DNA of 64,000 bases from Corbicula japonica (lineage: Eukaryota; Mollusca; Bivalvia; Venerida; Cyrenidae), in assembly GCA_038501625.1 (NCBI GenBank), contig JAZAYU010000081.1, positions 1,178,001-1,242,000 of the forward strand, written 5' to 3'. The notes beneath the pieces were generated by a model, which saw nothing but the letters and a program-made list of their open reading frames with translations, had not been told where the DNA came from and made no database searches. Numbering within the stretch: the first letter of the stretch is position 1; every line of letters begins with the position of its first letter. Positions 12,159-57,591 of this stretch are shown here, one piece after another. Position numbers and translations under genes: made by a program.

Positions 12159-12324
12159 GTCACGTGACACTCTGTTTATAACCAATAATAATATTAAGAC
12201 AGATGAGGACGAATAAGATATTGTTCCAGTGGCCAATGATCATTAAAATAATATGGCTATATTAATTTTAAACAGTTTGATGATGAGCCACATTCTAAAT
12301 TAATGTAATTGACTGTCACGTGAC
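12159..12324. promoter_or_regulatory. two GTCACGTGAC palindromes 156 bp apart
   Basis: Perfect 10-bp palindromes at 12159-12168 and 12315-12324. The sequence equals the consensus bound by MiT/TFE-type bHLH-zip factors (CLEAR/E-box). No gene or start site is visible next to them, so function is only a possibility. Confidence 0.2.
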
Positions 12325-12789
12325 TGCCTAGTTGCCGTTAATATACTATAAAAAACAACATTTACGTGTGAGAGCGTTGAATGGCTTACAGTTTATGTAA
12401 TGTTTTATTATGCGCATATAACGTTATGTATGTATCGATGAATTGGGTTTAAAATTCCTTGTAACATTATGTAGAAAAAGCGTGATAATTGTCCGTACTT
12501 GCCACTTCCCTGTCATACCTTGTCAGACGCGATAATCTGAAAAATATACCCTCAAGATATTTTCGTACGCTCCACAGACTGGTCGTAAATGCAGCAAGGT
12601 GGGAAAATTTTCGCATAATCACAGTTTATAATTGAAAAAGGCTGGAATTCACCAAATTTCGTAAGAAGTAAAATATTAACTAATTAAGGGCTTACTAAAA
12701 TCCTTCCCTGCATGTTCATCGATAAAAAGAAAATTATCAAAATCTCAATAACGGCAAAATGCCGTTTATTGAAACGTGTATGCATCGAA

Positions 12790-12836
12790 GTCTTGAAAAG
12801 CGAACAAGCTATGGCATATAAACCCTTAAACATACA
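12790..12836 (-). pseudogene. short fragment of Penelope-like RT (antisense)
   Basis: TCTTGAAAAGCGAACAAGCT and the following GCATATAAACCC match, with few changes, the plus-strand sequence at about 60158-60200, inside the Penelope-like RT ORF. Just upstream (12735-12770) is a CAAAATCTCAATAACGGC segment also seen at 42095 and 56325. A short relic. Confidence 0.4.
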
Positions 12837-13318
12837 AATTTTAGATTTTAAGGAAAACCATAATACAAAATTTAAAAATTTGCAATATTATAATAACAAT
12901 ATCAAATCTTGAAAATGGTACTTTTGTAAAATAGTATATTTTAGTGGTTACGAAACCGTTTTTAATAGAAATATTTAGGTCAAAAAGGTGTTTTGCTTTT
13001 ATTGAGGTCATATGTGTATATTTTATTTACCTAAGATGAAAGCTTATTATAATCTTTATTCAGCAAGTTGTCAAGTTCATCGCGAGTTGTTGCTAAAGCT
13101 ATTATTGTCCGAATACAGTAATTAAAGGAAGAACCATCAGTAATAAAAGTTTCTTTATTTATAACAAGCAAAGCAGGGTTTAGTTTCTCTTGCAAACTTT
13201 TGTCTCTGTTTCTGTGAAACGGTTGAGATCATTTCCTATTTAATATAATTCTCTTAATAATTTATAAATAAGTGTCTCCAATTAAGTTACGAAAAAATCT
13301 CTCTTATAAATTTATAAT

Positions 13319-13395
13319 TATGATGATGATGATGACGACGACGACGTTGATAATGATGATGATGATAATGATGATGATGATGGTGGTGGTGGTGG

Positions 13396-13431
<36 letters not shown>

Positions 13432-13510
13432 CGGTAATTGTGTGCTGATTATGATGATAATGATGATGGACGTTATGATGATGGTGATGGTAATGATGAT
13501 TATCAAAAAC
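13319..13510. repeat. compound (GAT)n microsatellite, copy 1
   Basis: GATGAT runs interspersed with GAC, GGT and AAT triplets. The serine-rich minus-strand and methionine-rich plus-strand frames here are products of the triplet repeat, not genes. The array is longer in the second block copy (22187-22383). Confidence 0.95.
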
Positions 13511-13767
13511 TTGGACCGCACGAATGCATCACACTTACTCTACCATATTTGTTTAATGCGTGTATCATTTTCGACCGAATAATATCACACGTGTGAGAAA
13601 TTTATTGTTCCTTATTATAGTTCGATTTTGACCCGTGAGCTGTGACCTTTTGGACATGTCCATTGTTATAATCCTAAATAGGTAAAGTATGTCAATTTAC
13701 AAAGGTACCGTTAATTTACTTAACTTATATGACATTAAAAAATGTTCAGCAGCCAAAAGTTAGTCAC

Positions 13768-13838
13768 GGCGAAATAGCTCAGTGGATAAAGATCTCGAGC
13801 TATGATTCCAAACATTGCAAGTTCGAATCCAATTAAAG
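13768..13838 (+). pseudogene. tRNA-like relic, copy 1
   Basis: GGCGAAATAGCTCAGTGG looks like a 5' acceptor strand, T8-A9 and an internal A box; GCAAGTTCGAATCC 50 bases on is a B box. The 3' side does not pair with GGCGAAA, and the D and anticodon stems are poor. A T7 run follows at about 13843. Best read as a tRNA pseudogene or the head of a tRNA-derived SINE; an intact tRNA is unlikely. Confidence 0.5.
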
Positions 13839-14276
13839 AAACTTTTTTTATTTTTGTCTTTCATTTACTTTTTTAAATATTAATTTAGTCCGCATGATAT
13901 TATTTAGTTAATTGTTAATTTATCATTATCTTTTGCAAAGCCTTTTGATTTAGTTCCTGTTCATTTTTTTTTTAAATATATTGTTGTTGAGCAGCTTGCC
14001 GTCCCCCATTCACCGCTGCCCCAAAGGGGTACTGACACTTGTGAATCCTGACTTTCTGTAAACAATTGTAGTTAATGGAACCTTCATAACATTCTCTTCT
14101 TTTCAAAACCATTTTGTACAATGTATTGGCATCGTCCGAAAACTGTATTTTGAGTAAGCTTCGATCGCGACATCTTACCAACTGACTTGATGAAAGCTTA
14201 CTCGACATTTGCACGTTTTTTTGACAATTTTGTTGGTTCTACATATTTGTAATGAAAAGAATGACATTAAAAATAA

Positions 14277-14355
14277 GATCCGCTCACAGGATTCGAACTC
14301 ACAACCCTTCTGACACATTATCAGAAATCAGAAGCGTTACTGCCACGGCTATGAA
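14277..14355 (-). pseudogene. tRNA-like relic on the minus strand, copy 1
   Basis: On the minus strand: CATAGCCGTGGCAGTAACGC (A-box like), then GAGTTCGAATCCTGTGAGCGG (B-box like). Between them TTCTGA and TCAGAA could form a 6-bp stem, but with a 14-base loop, so there is no proper anticodon arm. Likely tRNA-derived. Confidence 0.45.
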
Positions 14356-15129
14356 ACCTTTTTGTTACATGTTTTTCAATTTCAAAATTATGAGATATGA
14401 TAGGACAATCTAACTTCCCTATTTTGTGGAATATTCCAAAAATCTATAAATACAAAAGTGCATTCACGGCTCAACGCGTAAAATCGGACTATACATGTGT
14501 TACTATAAATACAAATAATGACCAAAATGCACGGGTACTTTGCGTGATAAAGGGCGGGCAGAAAACCTGATATCGCCGGCCGAAAACCATTGTTACAGGA
14601 TTTAACTTTTACATTTCAAGATGGCGACGATTGGATCGATCGAATTTAATTCATTTTTTTTAACTAGATGCAAGAGCAAGAAGTAGCTTATTTAAAAAAG
14701 AACATGCATGCTAACATGAGACATATTTTAAATGCGATAAAAATGACGAGAAACATAGAGAAATTGTACATACCTGGGGACAACCAAGAACAAAAAGCAC
14801 TGTGTTTTCAGAATCATGTGCCTTCATATTTCCGTTAGGCCTATTATTCCTTGAAACAAGTATGAATATTATGTAGATTCTATTTGTTGAATTGAAGCTC
14901 GTAGCAGCGTTATGAGTATGAAACACTCACAAATAACAGCATTTACATACCCATACCGCTGTAAAACACTTCCAGAATTCACATTTTCACAATCTCATAT
15001 CTTGCAAAATTTGATCAAATCGTTCGAAGACAAAATCATTTAAAACAAAATAAAACTAAAAAAATCAACTGACAATAACTTGCTCTGTTACAGTTTGAAA
15101 ATGTGAACAATCTTTAATTACGTCACAAA

Positions 15130-15169
15130 AAGGTGAAATATGCATATCAGGAATCGCCACATTCAGAAA
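15130..15169 (+). repeat. Penelope-associated repeat R1, 5' piece (split copy 1)
   Basis: GGTGAAATATGCATATCAGG followed by AATCGCCACATTCAG begins repeat R1, as at 59241 (plus) and 61462 (minus). It then breaks off; the continuation AAAAACAGCCTCCCCACAC is found 794 bp downstream at 15964. Confidence 0.75.
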
Positions 15170-15963
15170 CAAGAAATATCTTTAAAAAAAGATAAACGGC
15201 GTTGATGGAAAAGATTTAATATATAAGAAAGAAAGAAATAAAGAGCGTGCAAAAATTTCGTCTGATGATAATACGTCGATTAAAGAAGAATGTCTAATGT
15301 TAACTGTACATTTATTCAGTTTCAATAAAATACCTCTTGTAGAGTTAGTACTAATGACGAATAAATGTTATTAAAATACAATAAATGAAAATAATGACAA
15401 CTTGTTATAAGAGCGAAATCTACCAACTTTTACGTAAACTAACTTAAAAAAAGTGTCCCTCCCGGGTATTGAACCCGGGGCATCCGCTTGAGAGGCGAGT
15501 GTGATAACCACTACACCAAGGCGATTTGAATGTCTGGACTTGAAATTAACAATCAGTATCAAAGGAACTAGAAAGGAACCAGTAAGAACCAGAAATATCT
15601 GCACTTCTCTGTCGTTTTACACTGTGTATTGTACTCGAGTGTTTACCTGACACCCATGAATATTCCATATAAAATTGTATTTAAGCCATCAATTGACTTA
15701 ACTTGTTATTTATACCGTAAATATCTTTTTCTCCAATACAATTATCGCTTTTAAAAACGAAAATGCCCGAACATATAAGTGCCATGTAAATACTAACACA
15801 CAATATAAAAATCGTTACGGTAATCATTAACGAGACCCACTAATAACAAATCAAAATAATCTATTTGATTTTCCCGCTGCATAATAAGTTTTATTTACAA
15901 TATTTCATTGGTCGAAAAACTAGGTCAAAAGTGAGCTTAGACAGCTAACGCCGAATAACGCCG
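15170..15963. mobile_element. 794-bp insertion splitting repeat R1, copy 1
   Basis: In the minus-strand R1 copy at 61425-61440 the flanks are joined directly (rc: CACATTCAGAAAAAACAGCC). Here ~794 bp lies between CATTCAGAAA and AAAAACAGCC. The insertion carries a tRNA-Glu-like sequence on the minus strand (15454-15525). The junction lies in an A run, so a target duplication cannot be separated from the run. Class unknown. Confidence 0.6.
15454..15525 (-). pseudogene. tRNA-Glu(CTC)-like sequence, copy 1
   Basis: On the minus strand GGTGTAGTGGTTATCAC (D arm and A box), CTCGCCTCTCAAGCG (anticodon loop CTCTCAA, anticodon CTC), and CCGGGTTCAATACCCGG (perfect T arm) are in order and correctly spaced. 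A run of seven T follows, fitting a Pol III stop. The acceptor strands (ATCGCCT against GAGGGAC) pair at only some positions and the anticodon stem has a mismatch, so it is probably a decayed tRNA or tRNA-derived element. The copy at 24333 differs by one base in the anticodon stem. Confidence 0.6.
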
Positions 15964-16556
15964 AAAAACAGCCTCCCCACACAGTCAAGAAGAAGAGAGA
16001 GAGAGAGAGAGAGAGCATGGTTAATAAAATGATCAGTTTCAAAAGAGACACCACTAACAATGAACAAAAATGAGAACCCGAGGGGTTACCGCCTTGGAAC
16101 GGTCAGTGGCAAATCAAATTGCCACTGGGGGTTTAAACCAGGTTCTAGGGTGCACCAACCTCACACTTGCCCCAACAGGTTCTCATATCACAAAACAAAT
16201 ACAAGTTGTCTTGGTGAAACAACTCCAACCCACTTATTGGCTCAACAATGTTGCATGCAAACGCACACAAACATATAAAACATAAGAATCTAATAGCTTT
16301 GCAAAGCCAAAGGGCGGGTACTCAATGATCTTACCGAGACCAGAGCTCCTTGAGTAAAATCAGCAAGAACACGATGACAGGGATAAAAGAAACAAATCGA
16401 GCTTCTAGGTTCTTTTAATAAAAGATTTCCCCATAAACCTTCATAAGCTCTTAAACCCCTGCCAATGTCAGGGATAAAAGAAACAAATCGAGTTTCTAGG
16501 TTCTTTTAAGAAAAGATTTCCCCATAAAACTTCATAAACTCTTAATCCCCTGCCAC
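15964..16556 (+). repeat. Penelope-associated repeat R1, main part, copy 1
   Basis: Contains in order CAGCCTCCCCACACAG, an AG run (15988-16015), GAGAACCCGAGGGGTTACCG, GGTTCTAGGGTGCACC, CTTGCCCCAACAGGTTCTC, GGGCGGGTACTCAATGATC and the end GATTTCCCCATAAACC..CCCCTGCCA. The last 91 bp are tandemly doubled (GGGATAAAAGAAAC at 16380 and 16471). The same repeat flanks the RT at 59755-60965 on both sides, tying it to that retroelement. The two overlapping small frames here are not genes. Confidence 0.85.
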
Positions 16557-16693
16557 AAAACTCTAAATGACGTAGTAGCTAAAACATTCATCATGACGTA
16601 GTTAATTAATTAATAGACGAGTGCTCAGTAAATTTTATAAATTGACAGATCAGGAAAATGGCAGACATCGATATCAGCCCGGTACATGTAATA

Positions 16694-16845
16694 AAATGGT
16701 TATAAACCGGTGTTCAAGGGCCGGGAGGTGATATCGGCCCGGCCGAGCAACATAAACCCTCGAGCTAAAGCTCTCGGGCCAATATTGCTCTTCCGGGACG
16801 ATATCACCTCCCGGTCCTTGAACACCGGTTAATAACCTCTTAATA
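16694..16845. mobile_element. palindromic MITE with GC-rich hairpin, copy 1
   Basis: Left arm AAATGGTTATAAACCGGTGT.. GGGAGGTGATATCGGCCCGG.. is mirrored by GGGACGATATCACCTCCCGG.. and ACACCGGTTAATAACCTCTT. Arms are about 60 bp with a handful of mismatches around a centre of CTCGAGCTAAAGCTCTCGGG. No coding content. Confidence 0.8.
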
Positions 16846-16948
16846 TTCGCTCTTTAAAATAAAAGCGCTGAACTGACCTATATTCGTAAATTTGCACTAA
16901 GAATATTTAAATGTAAAACTCGTTATTCATTTTACATCAGTTTGTTAT

Positions 16949-17539
16949 TATATACTGAACAAAAATAAAAAGTATCCACTTGTTTTCCCATTACCATATT
17001 TTCATTTAATCAGGAACGCTTTGGATGGTGTTTATTTAGTTAATCTCAGTTGTTTTTGAGTTAAATTGTTCATGAATAAAAACTTCCACACCAAGACCTG
17101 AGGAACTGCCAATCAAATAACAATTAATCATGACTTACAAAACACTACATATTCAATTTCAAGGGAGGTAATTGGAAATGGTTGGAATTTCTAGCGTTGT
17201 TTATCGAGGACCAGTTGATTTATTTATGAAAATTTTGTGATTTTATTTATCCACAAGAGGTAGAGAACGTGATTTAATTCCAATAAATGTGAATATTTCA
17301 AAGAATCGCTAACATTTTACTGAAACCCATATTACAATAAAAACATTTTACTGAAACCCATATTACAATAAAGGGAAGACAACTAAGTTGTGGCTGCAGA
17401 TTTTCAAGAATACTTTATCTCTTTGCAATGATAACAGAAAAGCATATGTGTACACATATAGAATTATGAGTTTTCGTTTTCATATTTTACAAAAGTTAAT
17501 ATAGGAAAGTGGATACTTTTTATTTTTGTTGAGTATATA
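16949..17539. mobile_element. 590-bp non-autonomous Tc1/mariner-like element, copy 1
   Basis: The left end TATATACTGAACAAAAATAA then AAAGTATCCACTT is mirrored at the right by AAGTGGATACTTTTTATTTT and TGTTGAGTATATA, giving ~33-bp terminal inverted repeats flanked by TA. ACTGAACAAAAATA-type ends are widespread in animal mariner-type elements. No transposase remains. A 32-bp unit (AACATTTTACTGAAACCCAT..) is tandemly doubled inside, at about 17309-17372. Confidence 0.75.
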
Positions 17540-19175
17540 CGTTTGATTTTAGAGCCTTCTTTTATCAAAGTGGCATAAAAAGTGATCCAGAAATCTATTT
17601 GATATTAAAAAAAAAATAACCCAGTGTAATTAATAAAATGATATTATCTAAAGAAAAAAATTTCAAACAGTAATAAATGATAACATATCAACGAAAAATA
17701 TTGTCAGTATATCATGAATAAAAAACAACATTGAAAACTTGTTTTTCCAGTTTCGCTTTCGAACCATGTATATAGTTACGTTGTTATGAACATTTTATTT
17801 TAGATCGTAGAATGGAATTATGATATCTGATCAAACTATAATATAATGGCGAAATGAATATTTTAATATTTGATGAAAACTGAGATAACCTATAAATCCT
17901 TTGCATCTTCGTCACTAAATTTACCATCGTACCATCGGTCCTACGTCATCATGCATTCGACACCAGCGAATATATTAATAAAGATGCCAAAAAAATTAAA
18001 CCTGCCATACGCATCTGTATTTAAAAATACACATTTGAAAGTATTTGCCGCAAAACTTTTCTGCACTGATAAAATAAATTGTGCATGTAACAGGGTAAAC
18101 TTTTTTTGTAATATATCACTACAAAAATACTACTATGTGTCAAATCTTCAAATGTACGCATCGTGTGTAGTTGAGAAATAACGATCGTAACAAAAACAAC
18201 AACAACAAAAATCAATAAAAGCACTTAAAGCCCCAGCCCTAAACTTAAGTAAGAATATACTATTGAAAAATCATATTTGTCCACATAGACTCCAATATAT
18301 AAACTCTCTAACAGAACACAAAAGGTCCGATCGCATTCTTTCTTATAGACGTGATTTTCAATGATAATGTTAAATTATAGTTAACGAAATTTTAAGAAGC
18401 TAAATATAATGGAGCTTTATTTAGCATCTATTTTTGACGAAGCGACCACTTCATGCGCGATCTCGATTTCTGTGACGTTTCGGAAATCCTACTTTGAAAT
18501 TCGCTTTTGGTCGCGCGGACCAAATTTATTTTAGTAAATTAACATTTTATTAGCCCGAACTAATGCTGCAAATATGTGCCTATAGTTCCAAATACATGTA
18601 ATATTTTATACAAGAGCGAGTTAATTGAAGTAATGCCGCTTTAAAGAACGTTCTTAACCCTGAATAGATGCCTTGTGCGAAAACCTTTGATCCATGTCAA
18701 TAATCATTCCATGCAATGTGAATGATTAAATGGCACGTCACAGGAACAAGCTTCTTTCGTCATATTTATGACATTTTGCTTGATATTATACGAGTATTTG
18801 GGAACTACTTATAATTATCTTTTTTTCTCGTAACTAAAAAGTATAGTTTTACATATTTTGACAATATAGTGTTATTTATACAGCGAAATTCATATTTATA
18901 GTGCATTTTTTAAATAGTAAATACCTCTTTTCATAGTAAATCTTCTTTGAGGGACTGAATACATTTTTCAACAATAACGAAAGTATCCAGCCAGTCAACG
19001 AACTAGCACCATGATGGATTTTATTTCTGATTTAAAATAAATATTTCCATCACGTTTAGCATTGTTTAGTGAGACATACGACATATTGATAATGTATCAA
19101 GGGTGGAGTCGAACAGCTCATTTCGCTCTTAATGAAGCTTAAACAGGAAACTTGTCTGCTTTGTGAATGTAATAG
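17540..19175. other. no recognised feature (first copy of block)
   Basis: AT-rich; short frames near 17870 (103 codons) are present in both block copies but resemble nothing I know and are not credible as genes. Confidence 0.5.
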
Positions 19176-19211
19176 AAGATATTTGTTTTACCAGTGTAAG
19201 ATAGAAATATA
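19176..19211. repeat. dispersed repeat D1, truncated by the gap
   Basis: AGATATTTGTTTTACCAGTG then TAAGATAGAAATATA; the contig stops here. The second copy at 28052 continues into the full repeat. Confidence 0.85.
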
Positions 19212-19711
19212 NNNNNNNNNNNNNNNNNNNNNNNNNNNNNNNNNNNNNNNNNNNNNNNNNNNNNNNNNNNNNNNNNNNNNNNNNNNNNNNNNNNNNNNNN
19301 NNNNNNNNNNNNNNNNNNNNNNNNNNNNNNNNNNNNNNNNNNNNNNNNNNNNNNNNNNNNNNNNNNNNNNNNNNNNNNNNNNNNNNNNNNNNNNNNNNNN
19401 NNNNNNNNNNNNNNNNNNNNNNNNNNNNNNNNNNNNNNNNNNNNNNNNNNNNNNNNNNNNNNNNNNNNNNNNNNNNNNNNNNNNNNNNNNNNNNNNNNNN
19501 NNNNNNNNNNNNNNNNNNNNNNNNNNNNNNNNNNNNNNNNNNNNNNNNNNNNNNNNNNNNNNNNNNNNNNNNNNNNNNNNNNNNNNNNNNNNNNNNNNNN
19601 NNNNNNNNNNNNNNNNNNNNNNNNNNNNNNNNNNNNNNNNNNNNNNNNNNNNNNNNNNNNNNNNNNNNNNNNNNNNNNNNNNNNNNNNNNNNNNNNNNNN
19701 NNNNNNNNNNN
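19212..19711. other. assembly gap of exactly 500 N
   Basis: A round-number run of N, as placed by scaffolding software when the true distance is unknown. Long open frames spanning it are artefacts. Confidence 0.99.
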
Positions 19712-21656
19712 TCCGGGTGCGATAGCCTTGGTATGAACAAAGAGTCTCTAGTTCTTGAACGTGGTCGGTTAACACGGTCTGTAACCGGATAAGATAATAA
19801 GGCAAATTAAGATGATAATGGCAAGCTAAAACCCATGGATGAAGGGAACAAGTACGAACTTTTATGGGATGTTTTTTTATTACTAGTGAGATATGCGCAT
19901 ACACCTAACCAATGTTCTAACCAATGTCCTAACTCCATCGATCATAGTTATCAAATTTCTCAGCGTGCATTTGGGAAATAATCTTCAAACATAATTGTAT
20001 ACATCATTTTTCACTTCTTTGTATGAAATTACCATTAAATCTCCCGCAGTTATTCGAATACCATTAACATTTAATCAAAGTAGGGGTAAACACAAAAGTC
20101 ACAGTCGTCAGAGCCGGTATATTCTCTCTTAACGAAAATTCATGTCTCGTTATTAAATATGGATTCGTATGTAATTTGAACTATTCTATGCAATTCCGGA
20201 ATAATTCAGTTACACAGAAGATGTTGCCGAAATTTGGCCCTCTTTACAAAAACTACGGTTGATTTTGTGACATTTGATTTTCTCAACATTTTAAACCGAA
20301 TGTAATCACCCCAAGAATGTATAAAAATATTCAACCCAAAACAGAAAAGTACCAACTTCATTAAAGTGCCACAAATCACCTTTCAAACAATGTTTTAAAA
20401 TTTTTTTTACTATTTTAAAGCATCTAAATAGTCATTTTACATTTTTCAAAACAAAAACTTATTTTTATTCTCAATAGTTTCGTCAATGGTTCTTTGAAAA
20501 TAAAGTAAGCCCGAATCGTCCCTTGACAAAATTGTCCGATCCGTGACAGGCTTTTCTATTTAATGTCTTCTGACTTAACACTGTGAAGCTACATGCATTT
20601 TGAAATTTCCGGACTTCGGTCGATGACCTCTGGATTGCTAATAACATGCGTACCCGATCCATTAGTTTGTCTTCGTATTAAATTATAATCTAATTTGCGC
20701 GTAATATGAATATGTTGTGTTTTTTTTTTAAATAAAATGTTATATTTGGTGTTTCATAAGAGAAATTTTAAAAATATAACCCAAAATGAGCGTGTCATAT
20801 TTTGCGAAATATTAAAATACACAGGTTACCTTCATGTTAGAATTGCTTCAAAATTAATATTCATTGCATACTTGTCATTTCCAACATTTAGAAAATGCAT
20901 TTAATTTCATGTTAATATATAACAGATTGTTTAAACTGGCAATATCATATTTTAGCTATTTCTCTAATAAAGGTTGTTATACGGACTTTTGAAAAGATAG
21001 TGTCTGGTTACGGATAAGTAGACAGTCACGTGACACTCTGTTTATAACCAATAATAATATTAAGACAGATGAGGACGAATAAGATATTGTTCCAGTGGCC
21101 AATGATCATTAAAATAATATGGCTATATTAATTTTAAACAGTTTGATGATGAGCCACATTCTAAATTAATGTAATTGACTGTCACGTGACTGCCTAGTTT
21201 CCGTTAATATACTATAAAAAAACAACATTTACGTGTGAGAGCGTTGAATGGCTTACAGTTTATGTAATGTTTTATTATGCGCATATAACGTTATGTATGT
21301 ATCGATGAATTGGGTTTAAAATTCCTTGTAACATTATGTAGAAAAAGCGTGATAATTGTCCGTACTTGCCACTTCCCTGTCATACCTTGTCAGACGCGAT
21401 AATCTGAAAAATATACCCTCAAGATATTTTCGTACGCTCCACAGACTGGTCGTAAATGCAGCAAGGTGGGAAAATTTTCGCATAATCACAATTTATAATT
21501 GAAAAAGGCTGGAATTCACCAAATTTCGTAAGAAGTAAAATATTAACTAATTAAGGGCTTACTAAAATCCTTCCCTGCATGTTCATCGATAAAAAGAAAA
21601 TTATCAAAATCTCAATAACGGCAAAATGCCGTTTATTGAAACGTGTATGCATCGAA

Positions 21657-21703
21657 GTCTTGAAAAGCGAACAAGCTATGGCATATAAACCCTTAAACAT
21701 ACA
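21657..21703 (-). pseudogene. short Penelope-like RT fragment, block copy 2
   Basis: Same as 12790-12836. Confidence 0.4.
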
Positions 21704-22186
21704 AATTTTAGATTTTAAGGAAAACCATAATACAAAATTTAAAAATTTGCAATATTATAATAACAATATCAAATCTTGAAAATGGTACTTTTGTAAAATA
21801 GTATATTTTAGTGGTTACGAAACCGTTTTTAATAGAAATATTTAGGTCAAAAAGGTGTTTTGCTTTTATTGAGGTCATATGTGTATATTTTATTTACCTA
21901 AGATGAAAGCTTATTATAATCTTTATTCAGCAAGTTGTCAAGTTCATCGCGAGTTGTTGCTAAAGCTATTATTGTCCGAATACAGTAATTAAAGGAAGAA
22001 CCATCAGTAATAAAAGTTTCTTTATTTATAACAAGCAAAGCAGGGTTTAGTTTCTCTTGCAAACTTTTGTCTCTGTTTCTGTGAAACGGTTGAGATCATT
22101 TCCTATTTAATAAAATTCTCTTAATAATTTATAAATAAGTGTCTCCAATTAAGTTACGAAAAAATCTCTCTTATAAATTTATAATT

Positions 22187-22259
22187 ATGATGATGATGAT
22201 GACGACGACGACGTTGATAATGATGATGATGATAATGATGATGATGATGGTGGTGGTGG

Positions 22260-22310
<51 letters not shown>

Positions 22311-22383
22311 CGGTAATTGTGTGCTGATTGTGATGATAATGATGATGGACGTTATGATGATGGTGATGGTAATGATGATTATC
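22187..22383. repeat. compound (GAT)n microsatellite, copy 2
   Basis: Same array as 13319-13510 but with a longer uninterrupted GAT run and fewer GGT triplets; the main length difference between the block copies. Confidence 0.95.
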
Positions 22384-22646
22384 AAAAACTTGGACCGCAC
22401 GAATGCATCACACTTACTCTACCATATTTGTTTAATGCGTGTATCATTTTCGACCGAATAATATCACACGTGTGAGAAATTTATTGTTCCTTATTATAGT
22501 TCGATTTTGACCCGTGAGCTGTGACCTTTTGGACATGTCCATTGTTATAATCATAAATAGGTAAAGTATGTCAATTTACAAAGGTACCGTTAATTTACTT
22601 AACTTATATGACATTAAAAAATGTTCAGCAGCCAAAAGTTAGTCAC

Positions 22647-22717
22647 GGCGAAATAGCTCAGTGGATAAAGATCTCGAGCTATGATTCCAAACATTGCAAG
22701 TTCGAATCCAATTAAAG
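22647..22717 (+). pseudogene. tRNA-like relic, copy 2
   Basis: Identical to 13768-13838 within what I can compare. Confidence 0.5.
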
Positions 22718-23155
22718 AAACTTTTTTTATTTTTGTCTTTCATTTACTTTTTTAAATATTAATTTAGTCCGCATGATATTATTTAGTTAATTGTTAATTT
22801 ATCATTATCTTTTGCAAAGCCTTTTGATTTAGTTCCTGTTCATTTTTTTTTTAAATATATTGTTGTTGAGCAGCTTGCCGTCCCCCATTCACCGCTGCCC
22901 CAAAGGGGTACTGACACTTGTGAATCCTGACTTTCTGTAAACAATTGTAGTTAATGGAACCTTCATAACATTCTCTTCTTTTCAAAACCATTTTGTACAA
23001 TGTATTGGCATCGTCCGAAAACTGTATTTTGAGTAAGCTTCGATCGCGACATCTTACCAACTGACTTGATGAAAGCTTACTCGACATTTGCACGGTTTTT
23101 TGACAATTTTGTTGGTTCTACATATTTGTAATGAAAAGAATGACATTAAAAATAA

Positions 23156-23234
23156 GATCCGCTCACAGGATTCGAACTCACAACCCTTCTGACACATTAT
23201 CAGAAATCAGAAGCGTTACTGCCACGGCTATGAA
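23156..23234 (-). pseudogene. tRNA-like relic on the minus strand, copy 2
   Basis: Identical to 14277-14355 within what I can compare. Confidence 0.45.
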
Positions 23235-24008
23235 ACCTTTTTGTTACATGTTTTTCAATTTCAAAATTATGAGATATGATAGGACAATCTAACTTCCCTA
23301 TTTTGTGGAATATTCCAAAAATCTATAAATACAAAAGTGCATTCACGGCTCAACGCGTAAAATCGGACTATACATGTGTTACTATAAATACAAATAATGA
23401 CCAAAATGCACGGGTACTTTGCGTGATAAAGGGCGGGCAGAAAACCTGATATCGCCGGCCGAAAACCATTGTTACAGGATTTAACTTTTACATTTCAAGA
23501 TGGCGACGATTGGATCGATCGAATTTAATTCATTTTTTTTAACTAGATGCAAGAGCAAGAAGTAGCTTATTTAAAAAAGAACATGCATGCTAACATGAGA
23601 CATATTTTAAATGCGATAAAAATGACGAGAAACATAGAGAAATTGTACATACCTGGGGACAACCAAGAACAAAAAGCACTGTGTTTTCAGAATCATATGC
23701 CTTCATATTTCCGTTAGGCCTATTATTCCTTGAAACAAGTATGAATATTATGTAGATTCTATTTGTTGAATTGAAGCTCGTAGCAGCGTTATGAGTATGA
23801 AACACTCACAAATAACAGCATTTACATACCCACACCGCTGTAAAACACTTCCAGAATTCACATTTTCACAATCTCATATCTTGCAAAATTTGATCAAATC
23901 GTTCGAAGACAAAATCATTTAAAACAAAATAAAACTAAAAAAATCAACTGACAATAACTTGCTCTGTTACAGTTTGAAAATGTGAACAATCTTTAATTAC
24001 GTCACAAA

Positions 24009-24048
24009 AAGGTGAAATATGCATATCAGGAATCGCCACATTCAGAAA
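24009..24048 (+). repeat. repeat R1, 5' piece, copy 2
   Basis: Same as 15130-15169. Confidence 0.75.
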
Positions 24049-24842
24049 CAAGAAATATCTTTAAAAAAAGATAAACGGCGTTGATGGAAAAGATTTAATA
24101 TATAAGAAAGAAAGAAATAAAGAGCGTGCAAAAATTTCGTCTGATGATAATACGTCGATTAAAGAAGAATTTCTAATGTTAACTGTACATTTATTCAGTT
24201 TCAATAAAATACCTCTTGTAGAGTTAGTACTAATGACGAATAAATGTTATTAAAATACAATAAATGAAAATAATGACAACTTGTTATAAGAGCGAAATCT
24301 ACCAACTTTTACGTAAACTAACTTAAAAAAAGTGTCCCTCCCGGGTATTGAACCCGGGGCATCCGCTTGAGAGGCGAGAGTGATAACCACTACACCAAGG
24401 CGATTTGAATGTCTGGACTTGAAATTAACAATCAGTATCAAAGGAACTAGAAAGGAACCAGTAAGAACCAGAAATATCTGCACTTCTCTGTCGTTTTACA
24501 CTGTGTATTGTACTCGAGTGTTTACCTGACACCCATGAATATTCCATATAAAATTGTATTTAAGCCATCAATTGACTTAACTTGTTATTTATACCGTAAA
24601 TATCTTTTTCTCCAATACAATTATCGCTTTTAAAAACGAAAATGCCCGAACATATAAGTGCCATGTAAATACTAACACACAATATAAAAATCGTTACGGT
24701 AATCATTAACGAGACCCACTAATAACAAATCAAAATAATCTATTTGATTTTCCCGCTGCATAATAAGTTTTATTTACAATATTTCATTGGTCGAAAAACT
24801 AGGTCAAAAGTGAGCTTAGACAGCTAACGCCGAATAACGCCG
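24049..24842. mobile_element. insertion splitting repeat R1, copy 2
   Basis: Same as 15170-15963. Confidence 0.6.
24333..24404 (-). pseudogene. tRNA-Glu(CTC)-like sequence, copy 2
   Basis: As 15454-15525 with one changed base (plus strand GCGAGAGTGAT instead of GCGAGTGTGAT), which falls in the anticodon stem. Confidence 0.6.
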
Positions 24843-25430
24843 AAAAACAGCCTCCCCACACAGTCAAGAAGAAGAGAGAGAGAGAGAGAGCATGGTTAAT
24901 AAAATGATCAGTTTCAAAAGAGACACCACTAACAATGAACAAAAATGAGAACCCGAGGGGTTACCGCCTTGGAACGGTCAGTGGCAAATCAAATTGCCAC
25001 TGGGGGTTTAAACCAGGTTCTAGGGTGCACCAACCTCACACTTGCCCCAACAGGTTCTCATATCACAAAACAAATACAAGTTGTCTTGGTGAAACAACTC
25101 CAACCCACTTATTGGCTCAACAATGTTGCATGCAAACGCACACAAACATATAAAACATAAGAATCTAATAGCTTTGCAAAGCCAAAGGGCGGGTACTCAA
25201 TGATCTTACCGAGACCAGAGCTCCTTGAGTAAAATCAGCAAGAACACGATGACAGGGATAAAAGAAACAAATCGAGCTTCTAGGTTCTTTTAATAAAAGA
25301 TTTCCCCATAAACCTTCATAAGCTCTTAAACCCCTGCCAATGTCAGGGATAAAAGAAACAAATCGAGTTTCTAGGTTCTTTTAAGAAAAGATTTCCCCAT
25401 AAAACTTCATAAACTCTTAATCCCCTGCCA
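24843..25430 (+). repeat. repeat R1, main part, copy 2
   Basis: Same as 15964-16556 with a shorter AG run (24868-24891). Confidence 0.85.
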
Positions 25431-25568
25431 CAAAACTCTAAATGACGTAGTAGCTAAAACATTCATCATGACGTAGTTAATTAATTAATAGACGAGTGCT
25501 CAGTAAATTTTATAAATTGACAGGTTAGGAAAATGGCAGACATCGATATCAGCCCGGTACATGTAATA

Positions 25569-25720
25569 AAATGGTTATAAACCGGTGTTCAAGGGCCGGG
25601 AGGTGATATCGGCCCGGCCGAGCAACATAAGCCCTCGAGCTAAAGCTCTCGGGCCAATATTGCTCTTCCGGGACGATATCACCTCCCGGTCCTTGAACAC
25701 CGGTTAATAACCTCTTAATA
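25569..25720. mobile_element. palindromic GC-rich MITE, copy 2
   Basis: Same as 16694-16845; one visible change (CATAAGCCC for CATAAACCC). Confidence 0.8.
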
Positions 25721-25823
25721 TTCGCTCTTTAAAATAAAAGCGCTGAACTGACCTATATTCGTAAATTTGCACTAAGAATATTTAAATGTAAAACTCGTTA
25801 TTCATTTTACATCAGTTTGTTAT

Positions 25824-26414
25824 TATATACTGAACAAAAATAAAAAGTATCCACTTGTTTTCCCATTACCATATTTTCATTTAATCAGGAACGCTTTGGA
25901 TGGTGTTTATTTAGTTAATCTCAGTTGTTTTTGAGTTAAATTGTTCATGAATAAAAACTTCCACACCAAGACCTGAGGAACTGCCAATCAAATAACAATT
26001 AATCATGACTTACAAAACACTACATATTCAATTTCAAGGGAGGTAATTGGAAATGGTTGGAATTTCTAGCGTTGTTTATCGAGGACCAGTTGATTTATTT
26101 ATGAAAATTTTGTGATTTTATTTATCCACAAGAGGTAGAGAACGTGATTTAATTCGAATAAATGTGAATATTTCAAAGAATCGCTAACATTTTACTGAAA
26201 CCCATATTACAATAAAAACATTTTACTGAAACCCATATTACAATAAAGGGAAGACAACTAAGTTGTGGCTGCAGATTTTCAAGAATACTTTATCTCTTTG
26301 CAATGATAACAGAAAAGCATATGTGTACACATATAGAATTATGAGTTTTCGTTTTCATATTTTACAAAAGTTAATATAGGAAAGTGGATACTTTTTATTT
26401 TTGTTGAGTATATA
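25824..26414. mobile_element. 590-bp Tc1/mariner-like non-autonomous element, copy 2
   Basis: Same as 16949-17539. Confidence 0.75.
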
Positions 26415-28051
26415 CGTTTGATTTTAGAGCCTTCTTTTATCAAAGTGGCATAAAAAGTGATCCAGAAATCTATTTGATATTTAAAAAAAAATAACCCAGT
26501 GTAATTAATAAAATGATATTATCTAAAGAAAAAAATTTCAAACAGTAATAAATGATAACATATCAACGAAAAATATTGTCAGTATATCATGAATAAAAAA
26601 CAACATTGAAAACTTGTTTTTCCAGTTTCGCTTTCGAACCATGTATATAGTTACGTTGTTATGAACATTTTATTTTAGATCGTAGAATGGAATTATGATA
26701 TCTGATCAAACTATAATATAATGGCGAAATGAATATTTTAATATTTGATGAAAACTGAGATAACCTATAAATCCTTTGCATCTTCGTCACTAAATTTACC
26801 ATCGTACCATCGGTCCTACGTCATCATGCATTCGACACCAGCGAATATATTAATAAAGATGCCAAAAAAATTAAACCTGCCATACGCATCTGTATTTAAA
26901 AATACACATTTGAAAGTATTTGCCGCAAAACTTTTCTGCACTGATAAAATAAATTGTGCATGTAACAGGGTAAACTTTTTTTGTAATATATCACTACAAA
27001 AATACTACTATGTGTCAAATCTTCAAATGTACGCATCGTGTGTAGTTGAGAAATAACGATCGTAACAAAAACAACAACAACAAAAATCAATAAAAGCACT
27101 TAAAGCCCCAGCCCTAAACTTAAGTAAGAATATACTATTGAAAAATCATATTTGTCCACATAGACTCCAATATATAAACTCTCTAACAGAACACAAAAGG
27201 TCCGATCGAATTCTTTCTTATAGACGTGATTTTCAATGATAATGTTAAATTATAGTTAACGAAATTTTAAGAAGCTAAATATAATGGAGCTTTATTTAGC
27301 ATCTATTTTTGACGAAGCGACCACTTCATGCGCGATCTCGATTTCTGTGACGTTTCGGAAATCCTACTTTGAAATTCGCTTTTGGTCGCGCGGACCAAAT
27401 TTATTTTAGTAAATTAACATTTTATTAGCCCGAACTAATGCTGCAAATATGTGCCTATAGTTCCAAATACATGTAATATTTTATACAAGGGCGAGTTAAT
27501 TGAAGTAATGCCGCTTTAAAGAACGTTCTTAACCCTGAATAGATGCCTTGTGCGAAAACCTTTGATCCATGTCAATAATCATTCCATGCAATGTGAATGA
27601 TTAAATGGCACGTCACAGGAACAAGCTTCTTTCGTCATATTTATGACATTTTGCTTGATATTATACGAGTATTTGGGAACTACTTATAATTATCTTTTTT
27701 TCTCGTAACTAAAAAGTATAGTTTTACATATTTTGACAATATAGTGTTATTTATACAGCGAAATTCATATTTATAGTGCATTTTTTAAATATTAAATACC
27801 TCTTTTCATAGTAAATCTTCTTTGAGGGACTGAATACATTTTTCAACAATAACGAAAGTATCCAGCCAGTCAACGAACTAGCACCATGATGGATTTTATT
27901 TCTGATTTAAAATAAATATTTCCATCACGTTTAGCATTGTTTAGTGAGACATACGACATATTGATAATGTATCAAGGGTGGAGTCGAACAGCTCATTTCG
28001 CTCTTAATGAAGCTTAAACAGGAAACTTGTCTGCTTTGTGAATGTAATAGA

Positions 28052-28319
28052 AGATATTTGTTTTACCAGTGTAAGATAGAAATATATTTCCCCAAGTGAA
28101 CTACGGAATTCGCATTTTCACGAGTGGCGAGGCCACGAGTTGAAATGCATAATTCCGGAGTACACGAGTGAAATATATTTCTATCTTTCACTGGTAAAAA
28201 CAAATTTTCTTTTTATGTTATGCTTTTAGTACAATATTTGCGTGAATTTGAAAGCAAAATTACAAGGAATGGCGCCTAAACCGCTTCTTAATGACGTGAC
28301 GTCGCGACGTCAAATATAC
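28052..28319. repeat. dispersed repeat D1, left part of the interrupted copy
   Basis: Follows 2401-2678 in order: the palindromic first half, TATGCTTTTAGTACAATATT, GTGAATTTGAAAGC, GACGTGACGTCGCGACG and TCAAATATAC. It is then interrupted by the foldback element; the rest of the repeat resumes at 32809. Confidence 0.88.
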
Positions 28320-28328
28320 AAATTTGAG
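28320..28328. repeat. 9-bp target site duplication, left copy
   Basis: AAATTTGAG directly abuts the left terminal inverted repeat. The identical 9-mer abuts the right end at 32800-32808. Confidence 0.9.
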
Positions 28329-30705
28329 AGATGTGTGAAGTTAGCGGCCTGGCGGCGTGAAGTTAGCGGCCTGGCGGCCTAGCGGCCTGGCGGCGTGAAG
28401 TTAGCGGCCTGGCGGCCTAGCGGCCTGGCGGCGTGAAGTTAGCGGCGTGAAGTTAGCGGCCTGGCGGCGTGAAGTTAGCGGCCTGGCGGCCTAAACTTAA
28501 TATTTATCATAATTTATGTTTATCATTAAAACGGCTTGAAATCGATTTTTACAGCATGCAATGTACATTTCAGGGATGATTAAGTGAAATTTCAACAAAA
28601 ACTAGCTTAGATTTTTATTAAGTTTTCGAAGCCTGGCGGCCTAGCGGCCTGGCGGCCTGGCGGCCTTAACCTAAAAATTATCATAATTTATGTTTATCTT
28701 AAAAATGTCTTGAAATCGATTTTTACGGCATGCAATGTACATTTCAGGGTTGATTAAGTGAAATATCAACAAAAACTAGCTTTGTTTTTTTTTAGTTTTC
28801 GAAGCCTGGCGGCCTAGCGGCCTGGCGGCCTAAACTTAAAATTTATCATAATTTATGTTTATCTTAAAATGTTTTGAAATCGATTTTTACAGCATGCAAT
28901 GTACATTTCAGGGCTGATTAAGTGAAATATCAACAAAAACTAGCTTTGATTTTTTTAAGTTTTCGAAGCCAGGCGGCCTAGCGGCCTGGCGGCCTAAACT
29001 TAAAATTTATCATAATTTATGTTTATCTTAAAATGTTTTGAAATCGATTTTTACAGCATGCAATGTACATTTCAGGGCTGATTAAGTGAAATATCAACAA
29101 AAACTAGCTTTGATTTTTTTTAAGTTTTCGAAGCCTGGCGGCCTAGCGGCCTGGCGGCCTAGCGGCCTGGCGGCCTAGCGGCCTAGCGGCCTGGCGGCCT
29201 GGCGGCCTAAACTTAAAATTTATCATAATTTTGGTTTATCTTAAAAATGTCTTGAAATCGATTTTTACGGCATGCAATGTACATTTCAGAGATGATTAAG
29301 TGAAATATCAACAAAAACTAGCTTTGTTTTTTTTTAAGTTTTCGAAGCCTGGCGGCCTGGCGGCCTAAACTTAAAATTTAACATAATTTATGTTTATCTT
29401 AAAATTGTCTTGAAGTCGATTTTTACAGCATGCAATGTACATTTCAGGGATGATTAAGTGAAATATCAACAAAAACTAGCTTCGATTTTTTTTTAAGTTT
29501 TCGAAGCCTGGCGGCCTAGCGGCCTAGCGGCCTGGCGGCCTGGCGGCCTAAACTTAAAATTTATCATAATTTATGTTTATCTTAAAAATGTCTTGAAATC
29601 GATTTTTACCGCATGCAATGTACATTTCAGGGATGATTAAGTGAAATATCAACAAAAACTAGCTTTGTTTTTATTTAAGTTTTCGAAGCCTGGCGGCCTA
29701 GCGGCCTGGCGGTCTGGCGGCCTGGCGGCCTAAACTTAAAATTTATCATAATTTATGTTTATCTTAAAAATGTCTTGAAATCGATTTTTACAGCATGCAA
29801 TGTACATTTCAGGGATGATTAAGTGAAATATCAACAAAAACTAGCTTTGATTTTTTTCAAGTTTTCGAAGCCTGGCGGCCTAGCGGCTTGGCGGCCTAAA
29901 CTTAAAATTTATCATAATTTATGTTTATCTTAAAAATGTCTTGAAACCGATTTTTACCGCATGCAATGTACATTTCAGGGATGATTAAGTGAAATATCAA
30001 CAAAAACTAGCTTAGATTTTTTTTAAGTTTTCGAAGCCTGGCGGCCTGGCGGCCTAGCGGCCTAGCGGCCTCGCGGCCTAAACTTAAAATTTATCATAAT
30101 TTATGTTTATCTTAAAAATGTCTTCAAATTGATTTTTACAGCATGCAATGTACATTTCAGGGATGATTAAGTGAAATTTCAACAAAAACTAGCTTTGATT
30201 TTTTTTAAGTTTTCGAAGCCTGGCGGCCTGGCGGCCTAGCGGCCTAAACTTAAAATTTATCATAATTTATGTTTATCTTAAAAATGTCTTGAAATTGATT
30301 TTTACAGCATGCAATGTACATTTCAGGGATGATTAAGTGAAATTTCAACAAAAACTAGCTTTGATTTTTTTTAAGTTTTCGAAGCCTGGCGGCCTGGCGG
30401 CCTAGCGGCCTAAACTTAAAATTTATCATAATTTATATTTATCTTAAAAATGTTTTGAAATCGATGTTTACAGCATGCAATGTACATTTCAGGGATGATT
30501 AAGTGAAATATCAACAAAAACTAGCTTTGATTTTTTTTAAGTTTTCGAAGCCTGGCGGCCTAGCGGTCTAAACTTAATATTTATCACAACTGCATTCTAA
30601 CTTATGCTTATATTAAAAACGGCTTGAAATCTATTTGTACAGCATATTATGTATATTACAGGGGTGTATACAAAAAATATCAACACGAACTAGCTTTTTT
30701 TTAAC
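28329..30705 (+). repeat. left arm of foldback element: modular tandem array
   Basis: TTTTCGAAGCC marks the core ends at about 28623, 28797, 28963, 29125, 29340, 29500, 29679, 29861, 30030, 30211, 30376 and 30542, with spacing 162-215 bp set mainly by the number of GCGGCCTRG 9-mers. Cores are nearly identical, so the array has been homogenised or expanded recently. The innermost unit (30591-30705) is clearly decayed. Confidence 0.93.
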
Positions 30706-31036
30706 AACTAAGTAAATTGTCAAAGTCTTTTAGAAATTTTGGAGTCTTGGCATTAAATGAGCATGTCGATCAAAAATACAGTGAATGTTTCAAACTTTAT
30801 TTACTTCCAACACAGAATACAATCTGTTCTGTTACTGTCACTCGAAGCTCGGAGAAAAATATAACGGTATTCAAAGTTGGCCACTGTATAAAAAAGTCGC
30901 GCATGTTTTCCGCAGTCACGCAAATTTTGTGGACACATTTCTTAACGAGGAAATGAATGTTTGTAGGGATTTTTCATCATGTAAAATGACTTTTAAACGT
31001 AATAGGCATATATATTTAATGCAGGTATATTTTTAC

Positions 31037-31098
<62 letters not shown>

Positions 31099-32175
31099 TG
31101 TTATACCTTGACCTCCGATTCAAGTTAGCAGCCAATCTGTTGGAAGAAAAACCATTTTACAAAAGTTGAATACCCAAGAACAGCGGTTAGTTGGACCTCG
31201 GGGATAGACATGTAAATGAAGCATAGAAAGGCGTTGAGACGGAGTTGAAACACAGAAAAACAAACTATTTATATGGTGGTCTACACAAAAGAGAGTTAAA
31301 CTAACTGTCGGATGAGAAATACAGAGCAACAGTTTCCATTTTGAAGTTCTGATTTTGAGTTATACACATTGCATGACGCTCCTTTGGTGCTGATAAATAA
31401 GGTGTACATGTACGATATAGGTAAGAAGGTCACATTTTTTATCATACTGAGTTTGCAACAAACGATACAACAACCCGTGGAACAAACAGATTCTTTATGT
31501 GTCACTCAAACCCATTAAATGAACATATATTAACATACGCTAAAAGGTTTTGTATGTTTAACAATTGGAAGCGAACGATCTTCAGAAGTCAGTTCTTCTT
31601 CGCTTTCGTGAGCAATTCTGTTGTGAAGACATGTTATTTGTAACTTTTTTTCAATTTTAAATAATTTCGGTTTTCCAGGGATTGATTGATAAGGTTTTTG
31701 TAAGTTAAAGTTGTAATTCCATTCTTGTTCAGGACAGCATGTGCATGTCAAGTGTGTAAGAACCGTGTTTGATAATGTAGTAGGAATTTTTCATGTCGAT
31801 GTCCTGATTGTTTAAAGTAAGTTCTAGCACCAAGCTACAGATACCCCACCACCCCGTTCACACACGATCAAAGTGTGACTGAAAACGTGGTCGATCGTGA
31901 CAAATCGCAGTTATCATTTTTAAGACTTTTTGTTTACTTGTAATAACAGTAGCGCAATGAAATCTTTTTATTTCATATTACCCTACAACATATATATTCA
32001 TGTTCAATAGCATTTTTTATTTAGACATTTTTGAAAAAAGATAATAATATTAATAACCGGTTAATATAATGGGTCTTGATGATAACTTTGAAAATCACGC
32101 TACTCAACATCACATCAATCGAGCCTTACACGTTCAGGTTGCTACTGGTTACACGAGAGATCTCTATATCTCTAA
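30706..32175. other. unique loop of the foldback element
   Basis: 1.47 kb between the arms. It contains a (CT)n run at 31040-31094 and frames of at most ~108 codons, none recognisable. No transposase signature was found, so the element should depend on a transposase supplied elsewhere. An alternative is that the loop is a captured genomic segment. Confidence 0.6.
31040..31094. repeat. (CT)n microsatellite
   Basis: About 27 uninterrupted CT dinucleotides inside the foldback loop. Confidence 0.97.
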
Positions 32176-32799
32176 TCAGCCCTGAAATGTACATTGCATG
32201 CTGTAAAAATAGATTTCAAAACATTTTAAGATAAACATAAATTATGATAAATTTTAAGTTTAGGCCGCCAGGCCGCCAGGCCGCTAGGCCGCTAGGCCGC
32301 CAGGCCGCTAGGCCGCCAGGCTTCGAAAACTTAAAAAAAAAACAAAGCTAGTTTTTGTTGATATTTCACTTAATCATCCCTGAAATGTACATTGCATGCC
32401 ATAAAAATCGATTTCAAGACATTTTTAAGATAAACATAAATTATGATAAATTTTAAGTTTAGGCCGCCAGGCCGCTAGGCCGCCAGGCTTCGAAAACTTG
32501 ATAAAAATCAAAGCTAGTTTTTGTTGATATTTCACTTAATCATCCCTGAAATGTACATTGCATGCTGTAAAATAGATTTCAAGCCGTTTTAAAGATAAAC
32601 ATAAATTATGATAAATATTAAGTTTAGGCCGCTAGGCCGCCAGGCCGCTAACTTCACGCCGCCAGGCCGCCAGGCCGCTAACTTCACGCCGCCAGGCCGC
32701 ACGGCCGCTAACTTCACGCCGCCAGGCCGCTAGGCCGTCAGGCCGCTAACTTCACGCCGCCAGGCCGCTAGGCCGCCAGGCCGCTAACTCTACACATCT
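32176..32799 (-). repeat. right arm of foldback element
   Basis: Inverted counterpart of the left arm: GCCCTGAAATGTACATTGCA, then GCTAGTTTTTGTTGATATTT, CTTCGAAAACTT, runs of GGCCGCCAGGCCGCTA, and GGCCGCTAACTTCACGCC repeated four times before the end CTAACTCTACACATCT. Much shorter than the left arm (0.62 against 2.4 kb). Confidence 0.92.
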
Positions 32800-32808
32800 A
32801 AATTTGAG
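32800..32808. repeat. 9-bp target site duplication, right copy
   Basis: AAATTTGAG, identical to 28320-28328. Confidence 0.9.
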
Positions 32809-32966
32809 CCCGTTTTCTAAACTTTTACATTTGGTATGTTATGTGCGTTTTGGTACCAACGTGAACAAATCAGTGAAAATAAAAATGATATTCCTCTGTT
32901 TAAAACCTGAAATACCACTTTTATTTCACCGGGAAAATTCTAAAATTCACTGAAAAGCATAAAATA
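32809..32966. repeat. dispersed repeat D1, right part of the interrupted copy
   Basis: Resumes the repeat exactly after the target duplication (CCCGTTTTCTAAAC, then TTTGGTATGTTATGTGCGTT, ACCACTTTTATTTCACCGGG, TTCACTGAAAAGCATAA), matching 2679-2820. Confidence 0.88.
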
Positions 32967-33072
32967 ATAGGTGATCTTCATTCTGAAGCTTCATACAAGC
33001 TGACAAACAACAAACACACGTAAGATTCACAAATGGTGAAAGGTTAATTAACATAAAAGGGTCAATACAGGG

Positions 33073-46101: not shown

Positions 46102-48051
46102 ATGGGTGACTCGAATAAAGATGATATTGAAAACATGAATGACATTGATTCCTGCTACGCTACGAGAGGAGAGATTATGAATTAAATTGCCGGACAGAAA
46201 AAAAGCAAGAAAGAGAAGGCTGCTGAGCGCGATGATATTCAAGTAAAAGTCACCGGTGGTGGAATTACACTTTGTCTAAATGCAGATTTATATGACAAGG
46301 TAAGAGAAGCCTTAAAGCTCTTTTATAGCAGTGAAAATCATGAACATTCGTGTACACATATTCCAGTAAGAGAAAATAGGAACAATCTCGTGGAAACCAA
46401 ATATAAAGTGATAAATGGTAGAAATCATCTGTACACTTTAAATTTATATCATACCAAATGTTCGGCACTTGTTAATGGTAAAAAAGCACAGCTGTTTATT
46501 GATACAGTCCTCCCAACGATTTTACAAACGATAGAATGTAATACTGTGAGAGACAACATCATCTTAGATGAGCATGACACATGCAGTGATGAGACGAGTG
46601 TGAAGTGTGTTTTTGCTGAAGATGAGTTGTTTATTAATAACTCGCGTTTACAAGAAAATGACATTATTTTCCCGGAGAAGACTTATCTTGGCATAACAAC
46701 TGACATAAACAATGATGATTCAATTGCTATGCGTGTTAACATGGATAATGAAAAAAGTGTTTTCATGAACCCCGGTGCAGCTGTGTTCATCAGCAATGCT
46801 GAACATTCCGACCTAGCGGATCTTAATGAAGCAGTGTTGCCTGAGTTTGACATCAAAATCCATATCCAGGAAATCCACAAACAGCTACAAGACTTGAAAT
46901 CAACTTTAACCCAGCATGTTAATAACACATCACAGCAGATTCAGTCAAATAAGGATGAAATAATAAGTGTTAAAAATCATAGCAAAATGAATGCGAACAT
47001 TACTTTACGTGTAGTGGAGTCGTTGTCAATGTTGACACAAGAAGTCGAAATGAAACTAAATAAAACAACTGAATTTTTACAGCACAGATTGCAGTCAATA
47101 TCAGACTGTATTAAAGTACAGAAAAATGAAGGCGTGAAATTAAATTCAATAACGAAAGGTCAAGAACAAAGTTTGTGTGATGCTGATCAACACACAACAT
47201 CTCGAGAAAGCAGGGAAACTGGCAGTATCACAAAGAAGAGTGCGAGTACAACATCACAGCAGACTCAAATTGATAGGCATGATAGGCATGATCAGAAGAA
47301 AACATTAATTATAGGAGACTCAATACTGAAAGGTATAAATCGTCGGGGATTGCAGGTCGGTGTAGATATCAACACAATAAAAGGCAGTGACACCACGCAA
47401 ATCCTTAAGAAATTGCATGAAACTGACCTTCACATATATAAAAACGTGATTTTATATATTGGAGGAAACGACATTGCCCGTCAAAGTCCCGAGGAGATTC
47501 TACAGAGGAATTTAGAAGACATCATTCATCTGCTTTCTGGGTGCAACTGTAAAGCCTATTTATGTACTCTATGTCCACGAGTTGATGCGGATGTTGTTGC
47601 TTTTAATGACTTTATCAGACGGCGATGTGATAATGAACTACTATCATGCATTGAAAGCTACACGTCATTTGTATATGGAAACGGCGAGCCAGTGCACTCA
47701 TTTTTCTTTTCAGACAGGATTCATCTAAACAAAAGCGGAACTCGAGCGTTATTGAGGTCACTTCACCACGCTGTCAGCATATTAAAGGGGACTCTCTCAG
47801 CTGGACCAAATGTATCTCCTTATTCCAGAAAAAACGTTACAGAAGATTATCCTAGAAAGCAGAAACAGCACGTGCGAGGACAGTCGGGTGGACGACAGAC
47901 GTCATCTTCACGTCGCGTGATTTGTTGGTCTTGTGGTATGAACAATCATACATGGCGTGATTGTAGAGTACGTCCATGGAATTTTCAGACAGACTCTCCC
48001 CTACGTATGAATGCAATAATATGTATTGTGTACTCGACAAAGTTTGTATAG
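46102..48051 (+). pseudogene. LINE ORF1: SGNH/GDSL esterase-like protein with zinc knuckle, nonsense codon 28
   Basis: The frame begins with ATG at 46102 (MGDSNKDDIENMNDID..), meets TAA at 46183 (codon 28), then stays open for 622 codons to 48051. There is no ATG in frame for the first ~180 codons after the stop, so the ancestral start is most likely 46102 and the TAA a disabling mutation. Codon numbers from 46102: a likely coiled coil at ~250-340 (FDIKIHIQEIHKQLQDLKST ..); an SGNH hydrolase domain from ~400 with GDS at 405-407, GGND at 454-457 and the catalytic DRIH at 538-541; a CCHC knuckle C608-C611-H616-C621 (CWSCGMNNHTWRDC). In CR1-type LINEs this protein is an RNA-binding chaperone with an esterase fold. 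The esterase triad looks intact. Confidence 0.88.
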
Positions 48052-57481: not shown

Positions 57482-57591
57482 GTAAATACTAATTCTTTCA
57501 GGCCGAAACATGAAATGCATTGTAAATAAACGCAATAAAATTTCTAAGGCATTCACCAACTTCATTAATTTTATTAAAGGTAGGCAAACAA

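Follow-up and report, generated by a model that had tools for sequence, protein, structure and literature searches.

The window is the whole stretch of Corbicula japonica DNA that was analysed, 64,000 nucleotides in length. It contains an element of 4,471 bp (28329-32799), bounded on each side by AAATTTGAG, in which two inverted arms of tandem modules enclose a unique loop. The element interrupts one of the two copies of a host repeat with a hairpin of about 150 bp that are present in the window. The features of the element and of its site are as follows.

2386/2396-2822, plus strand: element-free paralogue of the host repeat, lacking 12 bp at the insertion point
28047-28319, plus strand: left part of the host repeat, including a 150-bp hairpin at 28056-28205
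28320-28328, plus strand: left copy of the target duplication, AAATTTGAG, identical to the right copy
28329-28348, plus strand: left terminal inverted repeat, 20 bp, 18/20 identical to the right one
28329-28493, plus strand: left tip array of the 14-mer GCGGCGTGAAGTTA and the 8-mer GCGGCCTR, with six copies of GTGAAGTTAGCGGC
28494-30570, plus strand: left arm array, cores L1-L12 (132-135 bp), each followed by two to nine 8-mers
30571-30720, plus strand: innermost left unit L13, a decayed core keeping some marks of the outermost core type
30721-32171, no strand assigned: unique loop of about 1.45 kb, 35% GC, with a (TC)27.5 run at 31040-31094
32172-32624, minus strand: right arm array in inverted orientation, R1 and R2 full, R3 cut at 89 bp
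32625-32799, minus strand: right tip array of 14-mers and 8-mers, with four copies of GTGAAGTTAGCGGC and one variant at the terminus
32780-32799, minus strand: right terminal inverted repeat, 20 bp, 18/20 identical to the left one
32800-32808, plus strand: right copy of the target duplication, AAATTTGAG, identical to the left copy
32811-32967, plus strand: right part of the host repeat

The first-pass annotation had proposed a 9-bp duplication of AAATTTGAG and 20-bp inverted ends matching at 18 bases, and both were borne out. The left terminus reads AGATGTGT(GA)AGTTAGCGGC and the right one AGATGTGT(AG)AGTTAGCGGC. With up to three mismatches allowed, the left terminus is matched three times in the window (by itself, by the right terminus and by a tip module at 28441); the mean in 100 shuffles was 0.00. 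Among 200,000 pairs of points drawn at random in the window, 4 showed an exact 9-bp match at the spacing of the element. When a shift of up to 2 was allowed at both points, 49 of 200,000 pairs gave such a match. The element thus shows at the outer ends of its arms a target duplication within the 8-10 bp range of foldback elements, and the length also agrees with that of Mutator-like (MULE) or Phantom-type elements (8-10 bp, mostly 9 bp). A 9-bp duplication by itself is no proof of a MULE; this length is common to some other superfamilies as well. Within the window, no further copy sharing these ends was found.

Comparison of the flanks with the continuous stretch at 2396-2822 gave 85% identity on the left and 90% on the right. 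The 12 bp missing from the uninterrupted copy correspond to the 9-bp target and three further bases, so this copy is no clean empty site. Seen in a single relative, the deficit is compatible with an unrelated deletion as well as with a scar left by excision.

Two satellite contigs joined in opposite orientation during assembly could also give an inverted structure of this kind. The assembly is indeed imperfect nearby, since the sequence at 10847-19211 is found again at 19712-28086 (99.5%) around a gap of 500 N. However, there is no N within the element, the 9-bp duplication stands at its ends and both flanks continue one host repeat. A duplication and a continuous host repeat in the flanks are not expected from a chance join, and this explanation is very improbable.

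The 8.4-kb direct repeat to the left of the element, whose copies align over 8,379 positions with 22 mismatches and 5 gap openings, likely represents two haplotypes scaffolded in tandem on either side of the gap (19212-19711). Between the end of its second copy and the element lie 242 bp. The left copy stops at the gap, at the position equivalent to 28086; this position lies within the hairpin, 242 bp before the element. Each copy carries one weak tRNA-like Rfam match on the minus strand (15454-15525, 32.1 bits; 24333-24404, 29.9 bits). These two, both outside the element, were the only Rfam matches in the whole window, and ARAGORN found no tRNA in it.

The arms are modular, each unit consisting of a core of about 133 bp and a ladder of 2-9 copies of the 8-mer GCGGCCTR. 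The cores, given as about 135 bp in the first-pass annotation, measure 132-135 bp in 14 full copies. The accompanying 9-mer GCGGCCTRG was not confirmed, as it arose from the 8-mer being read with one base of the next. In the left arm (about 63% AT), unit starts lie 158-213 bp apart and the ladders contain two to nine 8-mers; the ladders of the right arm contain three and seven. GC-rich 8-mers and AT-rich cores thus alternate along the arms. In the tips, the 8-mers alternate instead with the 14-mer GCGGCGTGAAGTTA, which repeats part of the terminus. The motif GTGAAGTTAGCGGC is likewise part of the left terminus, while the right terminus bears a variant of it. Counted on both strands, GCGGCCT is found 75 times within the element and is absent from the rest of the window. 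Long inverted arms of tandem modules, as known from foldback elements, are therefore present.

Repeat units of a similar size have been described in oysters, where satellites of 164-166 bp form the central repeats of Helitrons (PMC8268682, PMC11136912). A Helitron or Helentron with a central satellite array, a common arrangement in those animals, was for this reason considered as the source of the structure. Helitrons make no target duplication (PMC7492417), whereas the element has one of 9 bp. It also has terminal inverted repeats, and its repeats stand in two inverted arms and not in one central array. The duplication and the termini contradict membership in this group; the Helitron reading was rejected and is hardly credible.

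As bounded here, the left arm measures 2,392 bp and the right arm 628 bp, so that the strong inequality noticed earlier (2.4 against 0.62 kb) is real in this assembly. The left arm has 12 full cores in addition to its decayed one; in the right arm, two cores are full and a third is truncated. From its terminus inward, the right arm is colinear with the outer left arm, the two being identical at 554 of 569 aligned positions (97.4%). Gaps of at least 6 bp in this alignment measure 16, 9, 6, 8, 8 and 32 bp, and the other four 1-2 bp; the 9-bp gap adjoins a 1-bp gap on the opposite side, leaving a net 8. The larger gaps correspond to whole 8-mers or to a swap between a 14-mer and an 8-mer (a 6-bp difference). 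The difference in length between the short arm and the outer left arm is mainly one of whole 8-mers. When 592 bp of the outer left arm and the 628 bp of the right arm were linked through a short spacer, 557 of the 573 pairs in the predicted fold were formed between the arms.

The cores follow the same order from each end. The alignment of R1-R2-R3 with L1-L2-L3 scored 315.7, the highest among the 10 consecutive runs of the left arm (the next best scored 296.0). This signal is not unique: 10 of 1,320 ordered triples (counting L1-L2-L3) reach that score or exceed it, and R2 taken singly is closest to L6 by identity or to L7 by score, not to L2. Since the arms align colinearly and the core order matches, a colinear ancestry of the outer arms is likely in spite of the non-unique triple scores; later exchange or parallel change may have contributed. 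The arms diverge inside the third unit, and the left one continues with nine more full cores. The innermost left core L13 is 67-71% identical to the three cores of the right arm. L10 and L11 differ at one aligned position and have the same ladder, which favours some recent gain on the left.

The right arm may be a shortened version, or the left arm an extended version, of one ancestral mirrored pair, and the inequality may have arisen before or after insertion. Arm length would then shift in steps, as entire 8-mers and entire units of about 166 bp were gained or lost by slippage, unequal exchange or gap-repair copying. Change by whole modules is suggested by the gap sizes and the likeness of the units. 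The numbers of 8-mers and the types of core in the arms could be read as a record of unit gain and loss in such arrays. A more elaborate and improbable proposal regards the element as a two-tier maker of satellites. Its own transposase site would have been copied into the tip arrays as the 14-mer, with whole 8-mers being added or dropped as a ruler, and the units of about 166 bp would have grown in one hairpin arm during gap repair after excision. The same proposal takes the related site at 2661, with its 12 missing bases, for a scar left by excision of a family member. If it were true, both satellite arrays and scars in the bivalve genome would stem from the element.

A unique loop between the arms, as proposed earlier, was found at 30721-32171. 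None of its open frames exceeds 108 aa, and its six-frame translation gave no Pfam match above the cut-off. Of seven matches below the cut-off, six (DUF3915, Atrophin-1) fall on the (TC)n run, and RHG20_PH does not. The loop is without a credible coding match. There are 61 open reading frames of at least 80 aa in the window, comprising 6 runs of N, 3 frames in the loop and 52 others, which were scanned against Pfam. Reverse transcriptase was above the cut-off in two of these 52, the rest having no match or one below it. Neither the loop nor the 52 frames contained a MULE transposase with a FLYWCH domain. Exact patterns of the core and of the core-ladder junction gave no match in viral, bacterial and archaeal contigs, and exact patterns of the tip and of the host repeat gave none in viral contigs. 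These zeros say little on other copies because the sequence searched is viral, bacterial and archaeal.

Other mobile sequences are present in the window. A LINE-type retrotransposon with three overlapping frames lies at 46186-51234; its reverse transcriptase is above the Pfam cut-off, and GDSL-like and endonuclease-like matches are below it. The middle frame has 110 relatives, of which the seven named by organism (three bivalves and four Candidatus Thiodiazotropha) are all far from the best match. Candidatus Thiodiazotropha are clam symbionts. On the minus strand at 59755-60672 there is an open frame of 305 aa with no Pfam match and at least 7,997 relatives, the top one being 92% identical over 95%. 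By its motif, it may be a reverse transcriptase piece of a Penelope-like element. The stretches 3819-4665 and 57590-58428 form an inverted repeat pair, 75% alike. The former holds an 86-aa frame with a DDE_3 match below the cut-off (18.8 of 28.6 bits, 3919-4179), 24 kb from the element. DDE_3 is presumably a mariner-type domain, and the frame is perhaps a relic of a mariner-type element. The window starts with a 145-bp tandem repeat of 4.7 copies (1-680).

The anatomy of the arms, the 9-bp duplication, the related host repeat without the element and the loop without a credible coding match make the element a well-supported FB-like, non-autonomous DNA transposon of the TIR type, in agreement with the first-pass reading. 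Taken as a whole, a non-autonomous foldback transposon is the likely identity of the element, and a MULE transposase supplied elsewhere in the genome probably cut and pasted it; a probability of about three in four can be given to this reading. A transposase made elsewhere would bind the tip motif GTGAAGTTAGCGGC, a putative binding site, cut at the ends of the element and insert it with a 9-bp stagger, giving rise to the duplication. The assignment to MULE is probable on the basis of the duplication length and of published precedents. Reasons for preferring it are that the Mutator-like group is said to include most foldback elements (PMC4079207) and that the families Tm1 and Tetris make duplications of such lengths.

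The foldback transposon might instead have been mobilized by a TIR superfamily other than MULE, for example P/Galileo-like, Merlin or hAT, but this is unlikely. Target duplications are 7 bp long in Galileo, 8 bp in P and in hAT, and 8-9 bp in Merlin. The 9 bp found here differ from the first three, and Merlin fits by length. Galileo is described as having foldback-like arms with tandem repeats, yet a P-type transposase (PMC3573991). For this reason, the arm anatomy does not fix the superfamily. On the other side, duplications are most commonly 9 bp in Tm1 (PMC3169594), which its authors place in Mutator, and 8-10 bp in Tetris (PMC4079207), for which Mutator is suggested.

Such a build is already known. 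In FB elements of Drosophila melanogaster, the inverted arms consist of short tandem modules, and the target duplication is 9 bp long. As compared by this general description, their modules differ from those of the element in length and sequence. The family itself was not found described in the open-licence papers searched, six of its sequence words gave no paper, and no molluscan foldback family was among the titles and abstract openings listed in searches for molluscan foldback or Mutator elements. In the oyster satellite papers PMC11136912 and PMC8268682, the word foldback was found only in the title of the Tetris reference; PMC7492417 also cites Tetris in its introduction. In a large survey of bivalve transposons, the automatically built libraries were purged of tandem repeats (PMC10294476), and elements of this build may therefore have been missed there.

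Tm1, a Mutator/foldback family of Meloidogyne, resembles the element in its composite inverted arms with a variable number of motifs (about 14 bp), unequal between the two ends, in its most common duplication length and in the use of a paralogous locus without the element as evidence (PMC3169594). In M. incognita, 30 of 39 copies are small and MITE-like (PMC3169594). By description, Tm1 is set apart by its 1-9 consecutive motifs of about 14 bp and asymmetric 7-bp outer motifs (PMC3169594), whereas the element has cores of about 133 bp with 8-mer ladders and matching ends. Galileo has long variable arms whose inner tandem repeats differ between the ends, and additional transposase sites have been proposed in its arm repeats (PMC3573991). 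Unlike the element, it encodes a P-type transposase, and its tandem repeats in D. mojavensis vary in one subfamily, in two or three copies (PMC3573991).

In oysters, the elements chiefly connected with satellite DNA are Helitrons (PMC8268682). The same source labels the 182-bp oyster satellite CgiSat28 as DNA/MuDR, which gives a precedent for a satellite-size repeat with a MuDR label in a bivalve; by description, it differs from the left arm of the element in its AT content (44%). Tetris of Drosophila virilis is similar to the element in its long arms, which contain satellite-sized tandem repeats (about 220 bp in Tetris), its non-coding middle, of variable make-up in Tetris, and its duplication length (PMC4079207). 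The number of its repeats differs between two allelic copies (PMC4079207). An outer flanking domain of up to 866 bp precedes the repeats in Tetris (PMC4079207); in the element, compared by description, the repeats start from the very terminus and the unit is a core with an 8-mer ladder. The element is likely of the kind predicted to seed new satellite DNA, and a foldback transposon with satellite-size arm arrays would give bivalves a second source of satellites, as Tetris does in Drosophila.
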